DNA of 29,761 bases from a virus: positions 1 to 29,761 of IMG/VR virus record IMGVR_UViG_3300030061_002111; one strand, written 5' to 3'. This document shows positions 13,465 to 27,950 of this stretch, piece by piece; position 1 is the first letter of the stretch; each line of letters begins with the position of its first letter. Both the position numbers and the translations under genes were made by a program. The notes under the pieces are model-generated. The model was not told the DNA's origin and made no database searches. It was given only the letters and a program-made list of their open reading frames with translations.

Positions 13465-13740
13465 ATGTATCTCCTTACTCTTAAAGAAAGCAAAGATGAA
13501 GGTGCCTATGCTGTAAAAGATAAGTATGGCGAAAAGGTTTTATTTTTGTTTGAGGAAGAGGATGATGCAGTTCGCTATGCTATGATGTTAGAAGATCAAG
13601 AAGATCAAATTATGGATGTTGTTGAAGTTGATGATGAACTTGCCATAAAAACATGTAAAATTCATAGTTACAAATACACTGTGATTACCCCTGATGACAT
13701 TGTGATTCCCCCTAAACATGATAACCTTCAAGACGATTAA
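13465..13740 (+). CDS. DUF3110-like protein between gp47 and gp46
   Basis: This 91-aa acidic protein begins immediately after the gp47 stop codon. Its features VLFLFEEEDDAVRYAMMLEDQ and AIKTCKIHSYKYTVITPDD resemble the DUF3110 family, which is almost confined to cyanobacteria and their phages. That supports a cyanobacterial host. The family has no established function. The compact alpha/beta pattern resembles a small regulatory or binding domain. Its last 23 nt overlap the start of gp46. Whether it contacts the 46/47 nuclease is unknown, but its place and coupling make that a reasonable question. DUF identity is from pattern memory, not a search. Confidence 0.7.
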   Translation: MYLLTLKESKDEGAYAVKDKYGEKVLFLFEEEDDAVRYAMMLEDQEDQIMDVVEVDDELAIKTCKIHSYKYTVITPDDIVIPPKHDNLQDD

Positions 13741-15430
13741 ATATAAAAACTTTTTAAGTGCAGGTAATACCTGGACTGAAATTGATTTTCAAAAACACAC
13801 TACCAATTTGATTATCGGAACAAATGGTGCAGGAAAGTCCACCATGTTGGATGCACTGACGTTTGTGTTGTTTAATAAACCATTTCGAAAAATTAATAAA
13901 CCTCAACTGGCAAATACAACAAACGAGAGAGATTGTTTGGTAGAGATTGAGTTTTCTGTCAATAGTCGTGACTACTTGGTTCGTCGTGGAATAAAACCAA
14001 ATGTATTTGATATTGAAGTTAATGGCAATCCTCTTCATAAAGAAGCAGATGATCGTGCTAATCAACGTATTTTGGAAGAAAGTATTCTTAAGGTAAATTA
14101 TAAATCATTCACTCAAATTGTAATTTTGGGTAGTAGCACCTTTGTGCCTTTTATGCAATTAACTACTGCTAATCGTAGAGAGGTCATTGAAGATCTTTTG
14201 GACATTCGTATCTTTTCGGCAATGAATAACTTGATTAAAGAAAGGATTAGAGTTATGAGAGACCAATCAAAATCTTTAGATCTTAAAAAAGAAAATATAA
14301 AAGATAAAATTGTGATGCAAGAAAGTTTTATCAGTGAACTTGAAGAGAGGGGAAATGTTAATATAAATGCCAACAAGGAAAAAATTATCAGTCTTGATGC
14401 AGAAATTGTTTCTTATATGGAAAAAAATTCCTCTCTTGAAAAGAGTATCTTGGGATATGGTGAAGATCAAAAATCTGTTACTGGTGCAGGAGACAAATTA
14501 GTAAAACTCAACAATCTTCGTGGAAAAATATCTCAAAAGGTAGGCACAATTACCAAAGAACATAAGTTTTTTACAGAAAATACGGTCTGCCCTACCTGTC
14601 AGCAGGATATAGAAGAAGAGTTTCGTGTAAATAGAATTAGTGACGCTCAAAATAAAGCAAAGGAACTCAAGAAGGGTTATGAAGACCTGGAAGAGACTAT
14701 AAAGTTGGAACAAGAACGAGAGCGTCAATTTAATTTACTTTCAAAGGAGATTACTAAACTCAATAATGGCATTTCTCAAAACAATACTCGAATCTCTGGA
14801 TGTAACAGACAGATCAGAGATTTGGAATCGGAGGTTCAGAGACTTACCGAGCAAGTTGCAAACAGAAATACTGAACATGAAAAGTTAGCAGAGTTTAAAG
14901 TAACCCTCCAAGACACAATTGAAAATCTTTCCGACAAACGGATGGAGATGTCTAATTATGATTTTGCATATTCACTTCTTAAAGATGATGGTGTGAAGAC
15001 GAAGATTATTAAAAAATATCTTCCCTTCATTAATCAACAAGTGAATCGTTATTTGCAGATGATGGATTTTTATATTAACTTTAATTTGGATGGTGAATTT
15101 AATGAAACAATAAAATCTCCAATTCATGAAGATTTTTCCTATGCATCTTTTAGTGAAGGTGAAAAAATGAGAATTGACTTGGCACTCCTCTTTACTTGGA
15201 GAGAAGTTGCAAGAGTCAAAAATTCTGTTAATACCAATCTCTTAATTATGGATGAAGTATTTGATTCATCTCTTGATGGATTTGGAACTGAAGAGTTTCT
15301 TAAAATTATCAGATATGTCATCAAGGGTGCTAATATTTTTGTGATTTCTCACAAATCTGATTTGCATGATAAATTTGACAATGTTATAAAGTTTGATAAG
15401 GTAAAAGGTTTTTCACGAATGGTGTCATGA
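13718..15430 (+). CDS. gp46: Recombination endonuclease subunit gp46 (Rad50/SbcC-like)
   Basis: This 570-aa SMC-family ATPase subunit of the gp46-gp47 complex is close to T4 gp46 (560 aa). Walker A is GTNGAGKS (34-41). Long coiled-coil arms flank a zinc-hook CPTC at 291-294. The ABC signature ASFSEGEKMR is at 477-486, and Walker B is NLLIMDEVFD at 507-516. The hook dimerises two arms through Zn, and ATP binding clamps DNA for the gp47 nuclease. The gene starts inside the end of the DUF3110-like gene, without an obvious Shine-Dalgarno sequence, so translation is probably coupled. The end overlaps the next ORF by ATGA. Confidence 0.96.
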   Translation: MITFKTIKYKNFLSAGNTWTEIDFQKHTTNLIIGTNGAGKSTMLDALTFVLFNKPFRKINKPQLANTTNERDCLVEIEFSVNSRDYLVRRGIKPNVFDIEVNGNPLHKEADDRANQRILEESILKVNYKSFTQIVILGSSTFVPFMQLTTANRREVIEDLLDIRIFSAMNNLIKERIRVMRDQSKSLDLKKENIKDKIVMQESFISELEERGNVNINANKEKIISLDAEIVSYMEKNSSLEKSILGYGEDQKSVTGAGDKLVKLNNLRGKISQKVGTITKEHKFFTENTVCPTCQQDIEEEFRVNRISDAQNKAKELKKGYEDLEETIKLEQERERQFNLLSKEITKLNNGISQNNTRISGCNRQIRDLESEVQRLTEQVANRNTEHEKLAEFKVTLQDTIENLSDKRMEMSNYDFAYSLLKDDGVKTKIIKKYLPFINQQVNRYLQMMDFYINFNLDGEFNETIKSPIHEDFSYASFSEGEKMRIDLALLFTWREVARVKNSVNTNLLIMDEVFDSSLDGFGTEEFLKIIRYVIKGANIFVISHKSDLHDKFDNVIKFDKVKGFSRMVS

Positions 15431-15630: not shown

Positions 15631-15838
15631 CTGGCAACACCACTCCAAGAAGGAGCAGAAACGAACTCTCAAACCTCAAGCAATGAGAGCAAGGAGAGAG
15701 GCACTCAGACAGTTCAAGAAGCGTCACAGGAACCGCCCAGACAAGGCGGTTTCGTCGTATTATGAGTCCATACGAACGGAACATTATGGCAGTTTCACAC
15801 GAGATCAAATCCCAACTAGCGAAACTTCTAGCAACTGA
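15617..15838 (+). CDS. Small basic protein with GTG start
   Basis: This 73-aa ORF begins at GTG 15617. The start is supported by AAAGGAG at 15603-15609 with a 7-nt spacer, an unusually good Shine-Dalgarno for this region. The first half is very basic (KKEQKRTLKPQAMRARREAL, FKKRHRNRPDKA), suggesting nucleic-acid or ribosome binding. It overlaps the preceding ORF by 14 nt and the following VWA gene by 53-77 nt, depending on that gene's start. The last 25 or so residues, in the overlap, are less conserved-looking and could be constrained by the other frame. No family is recognised. Confidence 0.6.
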   Translation: MTTPNWQHHSKKEQKRTLKPQAMRARREALRQFKKRHRNRPDKAVSSYYESIRTEHYGSFTRDQIPTSETSSN

Positions 15839-17897
15839 AGATCTTGTAGTGGAACACAAGAACGTTGAAACTGCCTGCTTCAATGTTCACACCAGAGTGC
15901 TGACTCTCCCTATGTGGGATGGTGCCACCAATCAAGTTTACGATATGTTGGTGGCACACGAGGTGGGTCATGCACTCTATACTCCAGATCGTGATTGGAT
16001 TAAAGAATATAAGATTCCTCCACAGTTTGTGAATGTTGTGGAAGATGTTCGTATTGAGAAACTGATGAAGCGTCGTTATGCTGGCATCTCTAAGACCTTT
16101 TATCGTGGATATAATGAACTCTCTGACAATGATTTCTTTGGTGTAGAGTGTGAAGATGTGAGCAAGATGAACCTTGCCGACCGTGTAAATCTTTATTTCA
16201 AGATTGGTAATTTTGTTGATATTCCTTTTGGTGAATATGTAGAGATGCCTATCGTTCGTATGATTGAAGGTTGTGAGGATTTTGATGATGTTCTCCTGGC
16301 ATCAGAAGCACTTTACAAATATTGTAAGGAGCAGATGGATACTGAGACCAAGACTGATATGGATTCATTGGAATCTCAAGGTTCTAGTTCATCTGAAGAA
16401 CATGGTGATGAATCGATGCAGCAGCAACCTGGTGAAACTGATGATGGAGAAATGCAGGATACGGAAGAAGTTTCTGATCAAGTTGGAGAGCAAGAGGATA
16501 AAAATACTACTCAAGCAGGAGAAACAAATCAAGAACCTGAAGTGAATACGATGGACGCACTCAATGATGCCATCAAGGAACTTACATCTAATGGTGGTGT
16601 TGAGAATGTGTATATTGAACTTCCCAAGGTAAATCTTGATGATATTATTGTTTCTAATAAGAGAATTCATGAGGAGTGTGATGAGCACTGGGGAGATCCT
16701 TTTGATCCCCATATCTTTGATCTCCCTGATTCTGAATTCTTAAAGTTCAAAAAGTCTGCACAAAAAGAGGTGAATTATCTTGTCAAAGAATTTGAATGCA
16801 GAAAATCTGCTAGTAGTTATGCTCGTGCTACTGTTAGTCGGACTGGAGTTTTGGACTGCTCTAAACTCCACACCTACACATACAACGAAGACCTATTCAA
16901 GAAGGTAACCACACTTGCTGATGGTAAGAATCATGGACTGGTCTTTGTTCTTGACTGGTCTGGTTCAATGGGAAATGTGATGCTTGATACGATGAAGCAA
17001 CTCTTCAATCTTGTGTGGTTCTGTAAGAAAGTTGGTATTCCTTTTGAGGTTCATGCCTTCACCAATGAGTATCCTCTCATCAATGAGACATCTGGTATTA
17101 GAGAACTTTCATATCAAAAGAAAGAAGGGTTGATGCATGTTGGTGAATATTTCTCACTCATGAATATCCTGACACATAATGTCAGTGGTAAGGTTCTGGA
17201 ACATCAGATGAAGAATATTTTCCGACTTGGATATTACTTCAGTCGTTATGCAATGTATCCTATTCCCATCGGAATGGGACTTTCAGGAACTCCTCTCAAT
17301 GAAGCAATGATTAGTCTTCATCAAATTATTCCTCAATTCAAGAAGACTAATGGTGTTGAGAAAGTTCAGTGTGTTGTACTGACTGATGGTGAGGGATATT
17401 GTCCTAAGTATCATCGTGAGATTCAACGTTCTTGGGAGCACGAACCTTTCATTGGTCTCGCTAGTATTGGATATAACTGCTTCTTGCGTGACCGTAAGAC
17501 CGGAAATACTTATGCTCTCGATGGAAATTGGGGTGAAATTACAGATATTCTTCTTACAAACTTGAGAGATAAATTTGCAGACACCAACTTCATTGGTATT
17601 CGTGTTCTTGAAGGTCGTGATGCAAATTCGTTTATTCGTCGTTATTGTGATTATGGTGAGTATTCAAAATTGGTAAAATTGCAGGATGAATGGAAAAAAA
17701 GAAGGTCATTTGCCATCAAAAATTCTGGATATCATTCTTACATTGCACTTTCTGCAACTGCTCTCGGAAATGAATCTGAATTTGAAGTTGAAGAGTCTGC
17801 CTCTAAAACTCAAATCAAGAAATCATTCATGAAGAGTCTGAAAAACAAGAAGATGAACAAGAAGATTTTGAATGAGTTTATTGAACTCGTTGCCTGA
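15762..17897 (+). CDS. VWA-domain protein with HExxH metallopeptidase-like N-terminus (CobT-like)
   Basis: This 711-aa protein has three parts. The N-terminus has HEVGH (66-70) followed by NVVEDVRIE (about 91-99), the layout of zinc metallopeptidase-like domains linked to VWA proteins. Residues 190-262 form a Glu/Asp/Gln/Ser-rich linker. The C-terminus is a von Willebrand A domain with a MIDAS site: D398-W-S400-G-S402, then GTPLNEAM and LTDGEG. CobT, the partner of CobS in cobaltochelatase, also has an acidic linker and a C-terminal VWA domain, and cobS is the next gene. MoxR ATPase plus VWA pairs also act as metal-insertion or remodelling chaperones, so cobalamin synthesis is not established. 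ATG 15786 is an alternative start. A terminator follows. Confidence 0.85.
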   Translation: MSPYERNIMAVSHEIKSQLAKLLATEDLVVEHKNVETACFNVHTRVLTLPMWDGATNQVYDMLVAHEVGHALYTPDRDWIKEYKIPPQFVNVVEDVRIEKLMKRRYAGISKTFYRGYNELSDNDFFGVECEDVSKMNLADRVNLYFKIGNFVDIPFGEYVEMPIVRMIEGCEDFDDVLLASEALYKYCKEQMDTETKTDMDSLESQGSSSSEEHGDESMQQQPGETDDGEMQDTEEVSDQVGEQEDKNTTQAGETNQEPEVNTMDALNDAIKELTSNGGVENVYIELPKVNLDDIIVSNKRIHEECDEHWGDPFDPHIFDLPDSEFLKFKKSAQKEVNYLVKEFECRKSASSYARATVSRTGVLDCSKLHTYTYNEDLFKKVTTLADGKNHGLVFVLDWSGSMGNVMLDTMKQLFNLVWFCKKVGIPFEVHAFTNEYPLINETSGIRELSYQKKEGLMHVGEYFSLMNILTHNVSGKVLEHQMKNIFRLGYYFSRYAMYPIPIGMGLSGTPLNEAMISLHQIIPQFKKTNGVEKVQCVVLTDGEGYCPKYHREIQRSWEHEPFIGLASIGYNCFLRDRKTGNTYALDGNWGEITDILLTNLRDKFADTNFIGIRVLEGRDANSFIRRYCDYGEYSKLVKLQDEWKKRRSFAIKNSGYHSYIALSATALGNESEFEVEESASKTQIKKSFMKSLKNKKMNKKILNEFIELVA

Positions 17898-17936
17898 TAA
17901 ATACTCTCAACTAAACCAATTCTTGAACTGTCCACT

Positions 17937-17960
17937 AGGCACCTTGTAAGGTGCCTTTTT
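17937..17960 (+). terminator. Intrinsic terminator between VWA gene and cobS
   Basis: AGGCACC (17937-17943), loop TTGTAA and GGTGCCT (17950-17956) form a perfect 7-bp stem, followed by five T. Including loop bases, the palindrome extends to AGGCACCTT/AAGGTGCCT. It ends the gp55-46-VWA operon, and its loop also provides a -35-like TTGTAA for the next promoter. Confidence 0.85.
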
Positions 17961-17970
17961 CTTGTATAAT
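17944..17970 (+). promoter_or_regulatory. Candidate sigma70 promoter for cobS
   Basis: TATAAT at 17965-17970 is a perfect -10, 24 nt before the cobS ATG. TTGTAA at 17944-17949 is a possible -35 but the spacer is only 15 nt. That hexamer is the loop of the preceding terminator. The -10 is convincing, while the -35 assignment is tentative. Confidence 0.6.
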
Positions 17971-17994
17971 AACTTCAGTTAAACAAAACAACCG

Positions 17995-19074
17995 ATGGGT
18001 CTGTCTAAAGAAAGCATCATTGAGTGTCTTCGCGAATCTTATGGTGAGTCTATAAATTCTGCTGAAATCAAGGCATTCTGTCAGATGAATGATTTTAACT
18101 ATCAGACTGTCACTAACAAATTGACTGATTGCAAAGTTGGTCGTGGTAAGTGGAACCTGACTATTCAAGAAAAACTTGAGCAAAATTATCAGGCACCTCC
18201 TGCTATGCCTGTTGTAGAACAAAACCTTATCCCTCTGAAAGATGAAACTTTCGTTAAGTTCGGACCATTTGGTGATCTTAAAAAGATTATACAAAGTAAG
18301 TTTTTCTATCCTGCTTTTATTACTGGTCTCTCTGGAAATGGCAAAACATTTTCAGTGGAGCAAGCCTGTGCTCAATTGGGCAGAGAACTTATTCGTGTAA
18401 ACATTACTATTGAAACCGATGAAGATGATCTTATTGGCGGCTTCCGCCTTGTTGATGGCAACACCGTCTGGCACAATGGCCCAGTCGTCGAAGCACTTGA
18501 ACGAGGTGCTGTCTTGCTCCTTGATGAGATCGACCTCGCTAGTAACAAAATTCTCTGTCTCCAATCTATCCTTGAAGGAAAGGGAGTTTTCCTTAAGAAG
18601 ATCGGACGACGAGTTGATCCTGCAAGTGGATTCAACGTCATCGCCACAGCAAACACTAAGGGTAAAGGTTCAGACGATGGACGATTCATTGGAACTAACG
18701 TGCTCAATGAAGCCTTCCTCGAACGATTCCCAGTAACTCTTGAGCAAGAATATCCCACTCCCACTAATGAAGTAAAAATTCTTTTGGGTGTTGCTGCCTC
18801 TGTCGGTAAGCATGATGAGGATTTCTGTAGGCGTTTGGTTGATTGGGGTGACATCATCCGTAAGACCTTCTATGATGGTGGTATTGATGAGATCATCAGC
18901 ACTCGTCGTTTGGTTCACATCATCCGTGCTTATGGCATTTTCAATGATAAGGCAAAGGCAATTCAAGTTTGCGTCAATCGTTTCGATGATGAAACCAAGC
19001 AAGCATTCATGGAGCTCTATGATAAGGTTGATGCTGATTTCCAAATGCCAATTGACGAAGAGGTTCAATCCTGA
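17995..19074 (+). CDS. cobS: CobS-like MoxR-family AAA+ ATPase
   Basis: This 359-aa ATPase has an N-terminal region of about 85 residues with a helix-turn-helix look. The AAA+ core follows: Walker A GLSGNGKT (111-118), a DEDDLIGGFRL pore/insert region, Walker B GAVLLLDEIDL (171-181), sensor-1 IATAN220 and arginines in GRFIGTN and FLERFP. The conserved ETDEDDLIGG and WHNGPVVEAL segments are typical of the CobS/MoxR clade, and cobS is a common cyanomyovirus gene. In bacteria, CobS works with CobT and CobN to insert cobalt in vitamin B12 synthesis. CobN is absent here, so the phage role may be ATP-driven remodelling with the VWA protein just upstream. Confidence 0.88.
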   Translation: MGLSKESIIECLRESYGESINSAEIKAFCQMNDFNYQTVTNKLTDCKVGRGKWNLTIQEKLEQNYQAPPAMPVVEQNLIPLKDETFVKFGPFGDLKKIIQSKFFYPAFITGLSGNGKTFSVEQACAQLGRELIRVNITIETDEDDLIGGFRLVDGNTVWHNGPVVEALERGAVLLLDEIDLASNKILCLQSILEGKGVFLKKIGRRVDPASGFNVIATANTKGKGSDDGRFIGTNVLNEAFLERFPVTLEQEYPTPTNEVKILLGVAASVGKHDEDFCRRLVDWGDIIRKTFYDGGIDEIISTRRLVHIIRAYGIFNDKAKAIQVCVNRFDDETKQAFMELYDKVDADFQMPIDEEVQS

Positions 19075-19085: not shown

Positions 19086-19472
19086 ATGACTAACTCTTGG
19101 TCCATGCTCTATGATGAAATTTTGAAAATGGATAGACTTGACGACGGTATTGGTTCCATTACCTTACAATCGGAACCATATGCTCAATACAAATATAGTG
19201 AGGAGAAAATCCTCAATGAACTGAAAGAATATATTACCAGCACTTATAAACAACACTATTCTGCTGGTAATGACAAAATTCAGACTCTTGATCTGATTGA
19301 AGCTTGTGGTGATGGTGAGGCATTCTGCCGATCTAATATTCTAAAGTATGCTTCTCGATACGACAAGAAGGGCACTGCCCGTCGTGATATTATTAAGATT
19401 CTGCATTATGCAGTTCTTCTCCTACACTTCAGTGATAAGAGCGCACCTCCGACCGAAACTTACAATCAATGA
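19086..19472 (+). CDS. DUF3310-like (SaV-like) protein
   Basis: This 128-aa protein has the family pattern in its second half: HYSAGNDKIQTLDLIEACGD (57-76), then NILKYASRYDKKGTARRDI and KILHYAVLLL. DUF3310 proteins typically read HY...IDVIEA...GNVIKYLLRY and are widespread in phages, sometimes described as nucleotide kinase-like, without firm function. Here it opens the replication operon, directly under a near-consensus promoter. The ATG at 19086 is so close to the -10 that initiation would be leaderless. The in-frame ATG at 19104 is the alternative start. Its stop overlaps the upstream ATG option of gp45 (ATGA). Confidence 0.8.
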   Translation: MTNSWSMLYDEILKMDRLDDGIGSITLQSEPYAQYKYSEEKILNELKEYITSTYKQHYSAGNDKIQTLDLIEACGDGEAFCRSNILKYASRYDKKGTARRDIIKILHYAVLLLHFSDKSAPPTETYNQ

Positions 19473-19495
19473 CCACAAAATTACGCGAACGCACC

Positions 19496-20164
19496 ATGAA
19501 ACTGAGTGATTCAACTCTGTCTATTTTGAGAAATTTTGCAGGAATTAATAATTCTATTCTTGTAAAGCAAGGCAATCGTCTTCGCACTATTTCTGTTGCT
19601 AAGAACATCCTAGCAGAAGCAAATCTTACTGAAGAATTTCCTTCTGACTTTGCACTTTATGATCTTAATCAGTTTCTCAATGTAAATAACAGTCTCTTTA
19701 GAAATCCTGAATTAGATTTTACTGATAGGGGATACGTTGTTATCAGTGAAGGCAAATCTAAGCAAACCTTTTTCTTTGCCGATCCAAATGTAATTGTCAC
19801 TCCTCCGGATAAAGACATTACTCTTCCCACTGAAGATGTTTGTTTTGAACTGAGTACAGAGCAACTTGATAAACTTCTTAAGGCAGCTGCCATCAACCAA
19901 CTTCCAGATTTTTCTGCTATTGGTAGAAATGGTAAGGTGACTTTGGTTGTTCGTGATAAGAAGAATGATACATCTAACAACTTTAATATTGTTGTTGGTG
20001 AAACTAACTCTGAATTTACATTCAACTTTAAGGTGGAGAACATTAAGATTCTTCCCGGAACTTATGAAGTTGTTGTGTCACAAAAACTTCTGTCACGATT
20101 TACCTCTAAAAACCATGATCTGACTTATTATATTGCTCTAGAACCAGATTCTACATTTGAGTGA
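19496..20164 (+). CDS. gp45: Sliding clamp gp45
   Basis: This is the trimeric DNA polymerase processivity clamp. It also activates late transcription when tracking on DNA. It has 222 aa from ATG 19496, close to T4 gp45 (228 aa). The start MKLSDSTLSILRNFAGIN matches T4 MKLSKDTTALLKNFATIN, which is why I choose it. An upstream in-frame ATG at 19469, overlapping the previous stop as ATGA, would add nine residues and could provide translational coupling. The C-terminus has PGTYEVVVSQKL and YYIALEPDSTFE, matching T4 YVVALEADSTHDF. It stands beside gp44, gp62 and RegA, the T4 clamp/clamp-loader cluster. Confidence 0.93.
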   Translation: MKLSDSTLSILRNFAGINNSILVKQGNRLRTISVAKNILAEANLTEEFPSDFALYDLNQFLNVNNSLFRNPELDFTDRGYVVISEGKSKQTFFFADPNVIVTPPDKDITLPTEDVCFELSTEQLDKLLKAAAINQLPDFSAIGRNGKVTLVVRDKKNDTSNNFNIVVGETNSEFTFNFKVENIKILPGTYEVVVSQKLLSRFTSKNHDLTYYIALEPDSTFE

Positions 20165-23206: not shown

Positions 23207-24062
23207 ATCTCGTGCCTGTGTAAAATTAGATCAATACATTCCAGATCTTCGTGATTATAAAGACTATCATGAACCATTTCTGGGTGGTGGTAGTGTTGCT
23301 ATTCATATTACTAAAAAGTATCCACATCTCAACGTGTGGGTAAATGATCTATATGAACCTCTTTATAATTTTTGGAGAGTTCTACAAGATGATGGATATG
23401 AAATGTTCAAAAGACTTCAAGAATTGAAGTCTAGATATCCTGATCGTGAATCTGCAAAGGGTCTATTTTTAGAAGCAAAAGATGTTGTAAATGATTATGA
23501 TCAATCCAATCTATTTCGTGCTTGTAGTTTTTTCGTTGTTAACAAGTGCTCTTTTTCTGGTCTCACTGAGTCCTCATCCTTTAGCGCCCAAGCATCTGAA
23601 TCAAACTTCTCAATGCGAGGAATTGAGAAACTAACAGGTTACTCTGAGATTATTAAGAACTGGAAAATTACAAACCTCAGTTATGAACAACTCCTTACTG
23701 ATAACAAAGAGTCCTTTACCTACCTTGATCCCCCCTATGACATCAAGGATAACCTTTATGGAAGGAAGGGGGGTATGCATAACAGATTCAACCACGATGA
23801 TTTTGCTGCCGATTGTGATAGGTTTATTGGTCCTCAACTCGTATCTTACAATTCGTCTCAACTGGTCAAGGATCGTTTCCAAGGATGGGAAGTAGGAGAA
23901 TTTGATCTTACCTATACAATGAGATCTGTTGGTGAATATATGCGAGAACAAAAAGAAAGAAAAGAACTTGTTCTCATGAATTATGATAAGAAACCAAAAG
24001 TTCAAATTTCATTTGATGGATGTTATAATTTTTCTAAGTTGAAGAAAGAGGGACTCGTATGA
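23166..24062 (+). CDS. dam: DNA adenine methylase, D12 class (Dam-like)
   Basis: This 298-aa N6-adenine methyltransferase has motifs in the alpha (D12/Dam) order. The AdoMet-binding start is LRYPGGKSR (8-16), FLGGGSVAI follows (38-46), then a target-recognition region with FFVVNKCSFSGL, and the catalytic DPPY is at 188-191 (TYLDPPYD). T4 Dam is 259 aa and methylates GATC. The target here cannot be read from sequence. Methylation probably protects phage DNA or affects replication timing. It begins inside the HTH-like gene and overlaps the glycosyltransferase by ATGA, so the two are translationally coupled. Confidence 0.93.
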   Translation: MKSLKTPLRYPGGKSRACVKLDQYIPDLRDYKDYHEPFLGGGSVAIHITKKYPHLNVWVNDLYEPLYNFWRVLQDDGYEMFKRLQELKSRYPDRESAKGLFLEAKDVVNDYDQSNLFRACSFFVVNKCSFSGLTESSSFSAQASESNFSMRGIEKLTGYSEIIKNWKITNLSYEQLLTDNKESFTYLDPPYDIKDNLYGRKGGMHNRFNHDDFAADCDRFIGPQLVSYNSSQLVKDRFQGWEVGEFDLTYTMRSVGEYMREQKERKELVLMNYDKKPKVQISFDGCYNFSKLKKEGLV

Positions 24063-24985
24063 GTAAATCAATGAGAGAAAAATTAGATAATCTTCGTCAA
24101 AGAAAAAACAAAGAATATCAAAACATAATTTATTATTCATATAAAATGAGCGAACATGATCATATTAATGATCATGAATTGAAACGTTTGAAGCACAGTA
24201 TTGAATCTTTGAAAAAGTTTAATACTGAAATATGTGTTTATTTGTTTTGTGATAATACTGATTTCATTCCATATGATTTTTGCTCGAAATATGATGTAAA
24301 TCTGAGACCCTTCATGGATGGATTTGATCACAACATGTTAAGTGCATGGTCAATTCATAGATGGTATAATCTCAAATATTTTAAAGATAGATCTTGCAAT
24401 ATTCTTTATCTTGACTCTGATACTATTTTTTATGATAATCCTCAGTATTTGTTTGACACCTATTGTCATCATGATGTATATGGTAGAGAAGAGTTTGGAT
24501 TTAGGCATGACCCTAACACAGGTGGTGGGAAAGGCATCAGAGAGTCTTTAGATAAAGTAGATGCTGCCATTTATGATCTTGGTGGCAAATGTGAGGTTCA
24601 TAAGTATTGTCTTGGTGTGATACTGATGAATAATAATTTTCACAATGAGATTATTAATCGTCTTGATGAACTTACTGAATTGATGCAATTGTTTAAATTT
24701 AGTGAGGTTCTGATGCCAATTCCCAATCCACGAATTATAGATCAGTATGCTGTATGGATTATCTTTAGTCGTCTTGAATTGAATGGTGGAATGTTTGCCA
24801 GTCAAGATGTAACCATGGGATTTAAAGAGAGGAAGCATGAAGAATTTTTTAATCCCGTTGTCCTTCACTACACAACAAAAGGTGAACAAGGACTTGCTGA
24901 GTCTGATGAGAAATATGCTAACCTTATCAGAGACACCGATGAGTTAGGTGCAGAAATAGACCCTTATAGTATGATTTTATCATGA
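24059..24985 (+). CDS. GT-A-fold glycosyltransferase
   Basis: This 308-aa protein has a DxD metal/nucleotide-sugar motif in ILYLDSDTIFYDNPQYLF (D119, D121). A preceding alpha/beta region with LKRLKHSIESLKKFNTEICV and VYLFCDN is the typical start of GT8-like or related GT-A enzymes. Later conserved elements are CLGVILMNN and PRIIDQYAVWIIFSRL. The acceptor is unknown. T4 DNA glucosyltransferases are GT-B, so this is not their homologue. Its coupling to the adenine methylase and place inside the clamp-loader locus suggest a nucleic-acid target, while protein or surface-glycan modification is the ordinary alternative. It overlaps both neighbours by ATGA. Confidence 0.85.
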   Translation: MSKSMREKLDNLRQRKNKEYQNIIYYSYKMSEHDHINDHELKRLKHSIESLKKFNTEICVYLFCDNTDFIPYDFCSKYDVNLRPFMDGFDHNMLSAWSIHRWYNLKYFKDRSCNILYLDSDTIFYDNPQYLFDTYCHHDVYGREEFGFRHDPNTGGGKGIRESLDKVDAAIYDLGGKCEVHKYCLGVILMNNNFHNEIINRLDELTELMQLFKFSEVLMPIPNPRIIDQYAVWIIFSRLELNGGMFASQDVTMGFKERKHEEFFNPVVLHYTTKGEQGLAESDEKYANLIRDTDELGAEIDPYSMILS

Positions 24986-26945: not shown

Positions 26946-27183
26946 GTGTTTAGTTCTTCAAAACGGATTAATTCTTATTGCAAAAATTGAAGAAATTCAA
27001 GTTGAAATTGGAGAACCAAATTGCAAACTTTCGGAAGTTGCACTGGTCAACTCCGATGATACTGTAAGTCCTTGGTTGACATGCACAGAGCAAAAAGATC
27101 TGCTGTTTAGATCAGAGGATATTTTGACAATTGTTGACCCCACAAACTTGATTATTAAATCATACATGGAAGTCATTGCATGA
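26938..27183 (+). CDS. Sm-like protein D (tandem paralogue of C)
   Basis: This 81-aa protein starts at ATG 26938, inside the end of gene C, with an 8-nt overlap. An upstream in-frame ATG at 26911 would overlap more and is less likely. It keeps the first strand pattern (IKCLVLQNGLILIAKIEEIQ) and the S-P-W and VDPTN motifs, but the usual G-E-E turn is replaced by N-G-L, so it is the most diverged copy. It may be a second ring subunit. The stop overlaps the next gene by ATGA. Confidence 0.65.
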   Translation: MIKCLVLQNGLILIAKIEEIQVEIGEPNCKLSEVALVNSDDTVSPWLTCTEQKDLLFRSEDILTIVDPTNLIIKSYMEVIA

Positions 27184-27950
27184 GGGTTTTAAGTATTGAT
27201 TTGGATTACATTATGGGTCCAGTCATTGAACTTTATAATGGTTTGATGTTTAATGATAATCCAACAATAAGGTGGGAACAATTTTTTAACAGAACTGATT
27301 TTAATGAGAGTCATTTTCGCATTGATCAATCAAATTTATTATTTTGTTACAATACTTTTTTAAAGGCACTTCGCAATTGTGATAGTGTCTCTTTTGGTTA
27401 TGAGCATGATTCTATTTTATTCAGTATTGCTGATTATGAGAATATTGATTTGATCAATATAGATCACCATGACGATGTTTTTGGTGGAGACTATATTAGA
27501 GAAATGCCAGATGAACATGCATACCAAGCAGAGTTCCATGAAATCATGGAACACAATAGGGTTCATGAAGGAAACTGGGGTGCCTGGTTGGGTGGACATG
27601 ATAAATTAAATTCATTTACTTGGATTGGAAATAAGAACAGTGTAAATAAAATACGTAATAAATTTAATGCAGAAGTAGTTCCTAACTATAAAAATGTAGA
27701 GAAAGAAGACTATAAGTTCGATAATTATAATTTTGACCACATCTTTGTGTGTATGTCGCCGCAGTACATACCCCCAAATCACTGGCATTATTTTGCGATG
27801 TTCATCAGTGCATTTGAGGAATTTGCTGGAAAGGATGCTATAATATACACGGAAAAGTTTGAGACCAACGTTCGCCACCAAAGGATTCATAATGAGATTT
27901 TACACCAATGTTCAAATGGTCGGGGATCACTTTCTGGTCAGGGGGTATGA
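27180..27950 (+). CDS. Arginase-superfamily/UPF0489-like protein (putative)
   Basis: This 256-aa protein has acidic/His clusters typical of metal-binding ureohydrolase-like folds: S-I-D7-L-D9-Y near the N-terminus, E75-H76-D77 in VSFGYEHDSIL, and L-I-N-I-D95-H-H-D-D99. The E-H...IDxHxD spacing resembles UPF0489 proteins, some of which are peptide arginases that turn Arg into ornithine. Other features are GNWGAWLGGHDKL (131-143) and MSPQYIPPNHWHYF. The order of motifs is not that of classical arginases, so assignment is tentative. It starts in ATGA overlap with Sm-like D, and its last 59 nt overlap gp43. A link with speD polyamine metabolism is conceivable only. Confidence 0.5.
   Translation: MRVLSIDLDYIMGPVIELYNGLMFNDNPTIRWEQFFNRTDFNESHFRIDQSNLLFCYNTFLKALRNCDSVSFGYEHDSILFSIADYENIDLINIDHHDDVFGGDYIREMPDEHAYQAEFHEIMEHNRVHEGNWGAWLGGHDKLNSFTWIGNKNSVNKIRNKFNAEVVPNYKNVEKEDYKFDNYNFDHIFVCMSPQYIPPNHWHYFAMFISAFEEFAGKDAIIYTEKFETNVRHQRIHNEILHQCSNGRGSLSGQGV

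Follow-up and report, generated by a model that had tools for sequence, protein, structure and literature searches.

The pairing of an AAA+ ATPase with a VWA protein is known from CobS-CobT of the cobaltochelatase CobNST, in which the VWA protein has an acidic linker, and from NorQ-NorD, in which a CbbQ/NorQ-like AAA+ ATPase is joined by a VWA protein comprising an N-terminal domain, a linker and a C-terminal VWA domain with a metal ion-dependent adhesion site (MIDAS). Two genes of this layout are present at 15762-19074 of a 29,761-base window (the whole stretch of DNA that was analysed) from the virus record IMGVR_UViG_3300030061_002111, which is a fragment of an oceanic T4-like cyanophage. 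They encode a VWA protein with an N-terminal HExxH domain and a CobS-like AAA+ ATPase, and are the 'peptidase' and 'cobS' core pair of cyanophages, with the same genes in the same order and place; our account differs only in the functional reading. On balance, we favour a MoxR-type AAA+/VWA protein-remodelling machine, the VWA subunit of which carries a metallopeptidase-like head, over a cobalt chelatase as the general case. The accepted functional label of cobalt chelatase is probably wrong, and the pair probably acts on phage replication or gene expression rather than on vitamin B12 synthesis.

In databases the two proteins are named "peptidase" (PHROG 459) and "cobS" or "porphyrin biosynthesis" (PHROG 249), and also T4-GC 146 and 150. 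The cobS gene is a cyanophage core gene in Sullivan et al. 2010 (PMC3037559). Liu et al. 2021 (PMC8651126) named the pair cobST, took "peptidase" to be an error, and suggested that viral CobST hijacks the host CobN. The VWA protein was found by tblastn in 463 phage records, and the ATPase, with at least 80% query coverage, in 459. The records bearing the pair were nearly all cyanophages, the others being three Pelagibacter, one Stenotrophomonas, one Pseudoalteromonas and one Ochrobactrum phage record. The original prediction, made from the window alone, needs correction here in that the pair, with about 460 phage records, is not unusual.

A similar architecture, a MoxR ATPase adjoining a vWA protein with an N-terminal metallopeptidase domain, was described in 2021 for the group 2.2 jumbo phages (Iyer et al. 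2021, PMC7824862). Those are other phages, a virion-assembly role was proposed for their pair (ASV44728/ASV44729), and the likeness to the window pair is one of described architecture. PMC7824862 does not tie its pair to the cyanophage cobS/peptidase pair, and no Agrobacterium phage was among the tblastn matches listed for the window proteins. The genes themselves are already known; a link between that architecture and the cyanophage pair, or the loss of the site in CobT, was not found in the literature searched, the coverage of which was partial and does not prove priority. A bacterial DUF2201 'putative metallopeptidase', an HxxxH/NxxxD protein with a VWA-like end, also stands beside a MoxR-like ATPase (Ectothiorhodospira, L207). 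The window VWA protein differs in having no match to Pfam DUF2201 (PF13203) above the cut-off, and membership of that family was rejected.

Sequence motifs and predicted structures of the pair

The VWA gene (15762..17897; all features reported here are on the plus strand) encodes 711 amino acids (aa). The probable true start is Met9 (15786), which is conserved and matches the gene start in Synechococcus phage S-SM2. The putative zincin-like N-terminal domain (aa 16-201, 15807..16364), supported by its AlphaFold2 model and its structural neighbours in the PDB, contains HEVGH (aa 66-70, 15957..15971) within a helix predicted at aa 57-73, and NVVEDVRIE (aa 91-99, 16032..16058) within the following helix at aa 87-105. 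E94 or D95 is the candidate third metal ligand, and a helical HExxH with an acidic ligand candidate in the next helix is, in the model, the arrangement of a zincin motif. An acidic, disordered linker follows (aa 196-262, 16347..16547), with a predicted local distance difference test (pLDDT) score of about 40-65 over most of its length. The low-complexity stretch of aa 196-270 holds 23 D/E and 2 K/R residues. The C-terminal VWA domain (aa 388-711, 16923..17894), recognised by its VIA-align fold match and its conservation, has an intact MIDAS formed by D398, S400 and S402 (16953-16967), T510 (17289) and D542 (17385). The adjoining ATPase (17995..19074, 359 aa) matches AAA_5 (1.3e-18) and CbbQ_C above the Pfam cut-offs and has an intact Walker A (GLSGNGKT, 18325-18348) and Walker B (LLLDEID, 18511-18534), as expected of the MoxR/CGN type.

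Among 112 diverse homologues, the invariant residues include H66, E67, H70, T74, N91, E94, D95, D398, S400, S402 and D542, and T510 is nearly invariant; the HEVGH residues H66, E67 and H70 are invariant in both phage lineages, the second of which is described below. HExxH was retained in 170 of the 170 homologues collected. As the collection scans had HExxH among their probes, the homologues that also carried an HExxH-free search probe were counted separately, and all 106 of 106 had the motif. It was likewise present in all eight relatives taken from annotated phage genomes by tblastn match or position. While HExxH alone arose in 4.6% of shuffled versions of the VWA protein, HExxH followed by EDxRI arose in 0 of 20,000, and, together with the conservation in 106/106, this led us to reject a chance motif. 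The elements named in the original prediction, HEVGH with VEDxRIE, the acidic linker, the intact MIDAS and the adjoining AAA+ ATPase, are therefore all present where it had placed them.

A second, distant lineage consists of a more CobT-like VWA protein adjoining a CobS-like ATPase. It is carried by the phages SSU5 (Salmonella), RHph_X66 (Rhizobium), ICP2 and JSF27 (Vibrio), PhiR41_1 (E. coli K-12), CRP-810 (Roseobacter) and hairong (Pseudomonas), and by Gordonia phages. The cyanophage and second-lineage proteins share about 20% identity, and hhalign identifies their N-terminal domains as homologues (97.8%, E 1e-12). Only nine columns are invariant in the alignment of the two lineages, in the order P, H, E, H, T, N, E, D, G, and they correspond to the putative metal site and its surroundings. 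The position of E94 is taken by a valine in ICP2 and JSF27, making D95 the likelier third ligand. A second-lineage pair with DNA polymerase III alpha was also seen in a cyanobacterial assembly (L095, Phormidium willei contig LSZA01000124), which is probably a phage contig or contamination.

AlphaFold2 modelling of the VWA protein with the 112 sequences gave a pLDDT of 82.8. The best structural matches of the VWA domain were the MIDAS domain of MDN1/Rea1 (Z 17.3) and the VWA domain of NorD (Z 15.6) by VIA-align. Both of these domains dock on AAA+ rings, and in NorQ-NorD a finger of the VWA domain enters the NorQ pore and the domain rotates (PMC9976466, PMC13036017). Midasin/Rea1 (Mdn1), the best structural match, differs from the window pair in being one giant protein with six AAA domains and no metallopeptidase head, and in serving ribosome assembly. 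NorQ-NorD differs in that no HExxH zincin head has been described and in that its target is nitric oxide reductase. The co-encoded partner with an intact MIDAS and a NorD/Midasin-like VWA fold is that of a MoxR/VWA couple, and the layout resembles CobS-CobT and MoxR-VWA systems at once, as had been noted from the sequence. Comparison with viral models gave long matches to haloarchaeal tailed viruses, Gordonia phages and Thermus phage P74-26.

The N-terminal domain, modelled alone with an alignment spanning both lineages, reached a pLDDT of 90.1 in AlphaFold2. Foldseek gave no match at E 0.001 or better, its leading entries being ArdC, selecase, abylysin and jannalysin. The top 17 VIA-align matches were zinc metallopeptidase-type folds, including ZMPSTE24, ArdC, minigluzincins, IrrE/PprI, BlaR1 and SPRTN, some of which we take to be zincins from general knowledge. 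The neighbours of the domain in the PDB are nearly all HExxH zincins, but with Z scores of at most 6.0 they are only suggestive of a zincin-like fold; what lends them weight is that so many different zincins agree with the HExxH motif. Searching the solved structures by sequence alone with the VWA protein yielded nothing useful, and the CobT structures (9uka and relatives) were absent from the fold search matches, which carries no weight either way.

The resemblance of the VWA domain to NorD would also suit a NorQD-like metal-insertion chaperone, which would open a phage or host metalloenzyme, such as ribonucleotide reductase, while the HExxH site handles the metal. The nearest solved AAA+/VWA couples, NorQD and CobST, insert metals, and the pelagiphage HTVC008M, which carries the pair, also encodes both ribonucleotide reductase subunits. 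However, an HExxH motif combined with E and N/D partners marks a hydrolytic zinc site, as in the zincins, and no metalloenzyme is a constant neighbour in both lineages. We regard metal insertion as unlikely.

Relation to CobT and the CobN content of hosts

No match to TIGR01651 (CobT, cut-off of 759 bits) was found in the window. The best NCBIfam equivalog match of the ATPase is CobS, but with a score of 70.7 bits it falls far below the TIGR01650 cut-off of 558.55. The sample of genuine CobT comprised five proteins, of which four scored above the TIGR01651 cut-off, and all five are without the HExxH and the ED pair; for example, GDSMALRKACH in a genuine CobT corresponds to LDHEVAHILFT in the phage protein, and VEQAR to LEDVF. 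CobS-CobT further differs from the window pair in its requirement for CobN. The original prediction had held that the label of cobalt chelatase does not explain the metallopeptidase-like N-terminus, and this is supported.

The direct signal between the cyanophage VWA domain and that of genuine CobT was weak (hhalign 14.9%), and the two are connected by way of the second lineage (78.6%, then 99.9%), the VWA domains of which are clear members of CobT_C. The second-lineage N-terminal domain is collinear with genuine CobT over 113 columns, again with a weak signal (hhalign 9.5%). Judged by these alignments, the common descent of the N-terminal domain with genuine CobT is likely, although not proven, and genuine CobT appears to be a form that has lost the metal site. 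The name CobT has itself been confused: in the paper on Roseobacter phage CRP-810 and in the record of Escherichia phage Cyrano, cobaltochelatase CobT is given as the other cobT, the lower-ligand phosphoribosyltransferase.

The absence of CobN had been pointed out in the original prediction. No gene matching CobN was indeed found in the PHROG scans of the window; however, phages normally do not encode a CobN of their own, and the cyanobacterial hosts have CobN. CobN was found in 56 of 59 cyanobacterial genomes and CobT above the cut-off in none (0/59), and hijacking of the host CobN is thus possible for the cyanophages alone. These counts, together with the CobS equivalog match, would fit a viral CobST that supplies the missing CobS/CobT motor to CobN-bearing hosts and raises cobalamin synthesis, as explicitly proposed by Liu et al. 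2021 (PMC8651126). Other hosts do not fit this proposal. The pair is present in HTVC008M, cobS and cobT have been reported in pelagimyophages (PMC7029224), and SAR11 is B12-auxotrophic (PMC9296465). Among the Enterobacteriaceae, the family of Buttiauxella and of hosts of second-lineage phages, CobN was found in 0 of 79 genomes, a sample that includes many reduced symbionts. Furthermore, 9 of the 16 bacterial assemblies bearing a second-lineage pair were without CobN.

Because phages of CobN-less hosts also carry relatives of the pair, its function in general cannot be to help the host CobN. A general cobaltochelatase role is unlikely because of these SAR11 and enterobacterial phage relatives, the assemblies without CobN, the CobS score below the cut-off and the missing CobT match; the co-occurrence check that had been recommended with the original prediction thus speaks against it. 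With the metal site, in addition, intact in the phages and lost in genuine CobT, we consider a viral CobST improbable.

Gene neighbourhood and control of the pair

The nearest named relative of the window is Synechococcus phage S-SKS1, with 76% aa identity in the VWA protein (tblastn); the ATPase has 83% aa identity to that of S-SM2. The upstream part of the window encodes, in order, tail sheath, portal, prohead protease, capsid, UvsY, UvsW, gp55, gp47 and gp46. The pair is followed by gp45, denV, speD, gp44, gp62, regA, hsp20 and the start of the DNA polymerase, the latter identified by its own sequence and by its position in S-SM2. The immediate neighbours are a gp46-like (SbcC-like) recombination nuclease subunit (13718..15430, PHROG 77) and a gp45-like sliding clamp (19469..20164, gp45-slide_C, PHROG 223).

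In T4-like phages, the pair adjoins gp46/gp47 and the gp45 clamp. In the second lineage, DNA polymerase III alpha stands beside the pair in every locus tested (eleven loci), in some of them after a sigma factor. Annotation places it there also in SSU5, RHph_X66, PhiR41_1 and hairong, and in ICP2 the neighbours are a primase, a helicase and a polymerase. The theme in both lineages is thus replication and recombination, by guilt by association and with exceptions. These neighbours favour the remodelling or clipping of replication or late-transcription proteins over a role in virion assembly. A chaperone-protease that remodels and trims structural proteins is the published proposal for the group 2.2 jumbo phage pair (PMC7824862), and the window has prohead protease and head genes upstream of the pair; however, the pair is grouped with replication and recombination genes, outside the head and tail clusters, in both lineages, and such a role seems quite unlikely.

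A same-strand ATPase gene was present at 140 of 170 VWA loci, and the remainder were mostly ended by a contig edge. Constant adjacency of the pair was rejected, as one contig clade has no ATPase gene within 3.5 kb downstream of the VWA gene. The VWA genes of this clade are those of L137, L140, L169, L184, L187 and L194; on the L187 contig the ATPase gene is far from the VWA gene, and on the L137 and L194 contig fragments no ATPase gene was found. AAA matches in Staphylococcus phage K and a Microbacterium phage were set aside because no such VWA partner adjoins them. The phage K locus (L005, 4241-5682) encodes a small AAA ATPase, broadly of this kind, and after it a 281-aa open reading frame (ORF) that has neither HExxH nor DxSxS.

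The ATPase gene seems to be under separate control, as judged from signals predicted in 17895-17994. The sequence GATAAATA (17896..17903) overlaps the VWA stop codon and fits the cyanophage late-promoter consensus NATAAATA (PMC2984593); ATAAATA was found at the VWA stop in 54 of 140 related loci. A terminator-like intrinsic hairpin followed by a T run (17937..17956) has comparable hairpins in 34 of 102 intergenic regions. TATAAT (17965..17970), a candidate -10 box of the ATPase gene, occurs near the ATPase start in 98 of 140 loci, compared with 13.7 expected. Elsewhere in the window, ATAAATATT at 380-388, 34 bases before the tail sheath ORF at 422, also fits the late promoter NATAAATA. Two window ORFs of 308 and 256 aa (24059-24985 and 27180-27950) had no PHROG match at 1e-5. 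PADLOC gave no anti-phage defence match for the VWA protein or the ATPase.

Proposed action of the pair and its meaning

Several observations weigh against a remodelling machine with a metallopeptidase-like head. The structural matches of the N-terminal domain have Z scores of at most 6.0, a range in which perhaps only a common arrangement is shared. The neighbourhood is not universal, since S-CREM2, S-CRM01 and one metagenome contig clade differ. The presence of CobN in cyanobacterial hosts leaves room for a chelatase role in cyanophages. Finally, Pseudomonas phage hairong has lost HExxH (LDSEIAKVL; L213, 4989-7067) with the VWA domain and the ATPase kept, and a motif in every phage copy was therefore rejected. 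The metal site is thus not always needed, and the hairong copy, as read from its sequence, would be a natural intermediate towards the CobT state. This loss, together with that in all of the genuine CobT proteins checked, could be taken to mean that HExxH is a relic and that AAA+/VWA remodelling alone matters. We consider this very improbable, given that all 170 collected homologues retain the motif and that the residues of the site are the most conserved of the N-terminal domain.

In the remodelling machine that we favour, the 359-aa ATPase would assemble as a ring, on which the VWA domain would dock and turn with ATP hydrolysis, as for NorQ-NorD, and the MIDAS metal would grip an acidic residue of the target. 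The N-terminal domain, tethered through the acidic linker, would bind a metal by H66, H70 and E94 or D95, and may cleave or clip the target with E67 as the general base. The target would most likely be a phage replication, recombination or late-transcription protein, or a host protein sitting on it. A more specific version, which we hold only tentatively and think rather less probable, is a viral ATP-powered metalloprotease, with the ring ATPase and the zincin as separate products and VWA as the adaptor, that clears or processes proteins at the replication fork, CobT being a relative whose protease site has been lost.

Lists of the core auxiliary metabolic genes of marine cyanophages include cobS, and the gene has repeatedly been used as evidence of viral B12 steering in the ocean. 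Should the pair be a remodelling protease, this B12 inference would no longer hold for hundreds of genomes or for many metagenome surveys, and the T4-like marine phages would have an almost universal machine with no known function. As relatives are present in an E. coli K-12 phage, the question is directly testable in a host without CobN.

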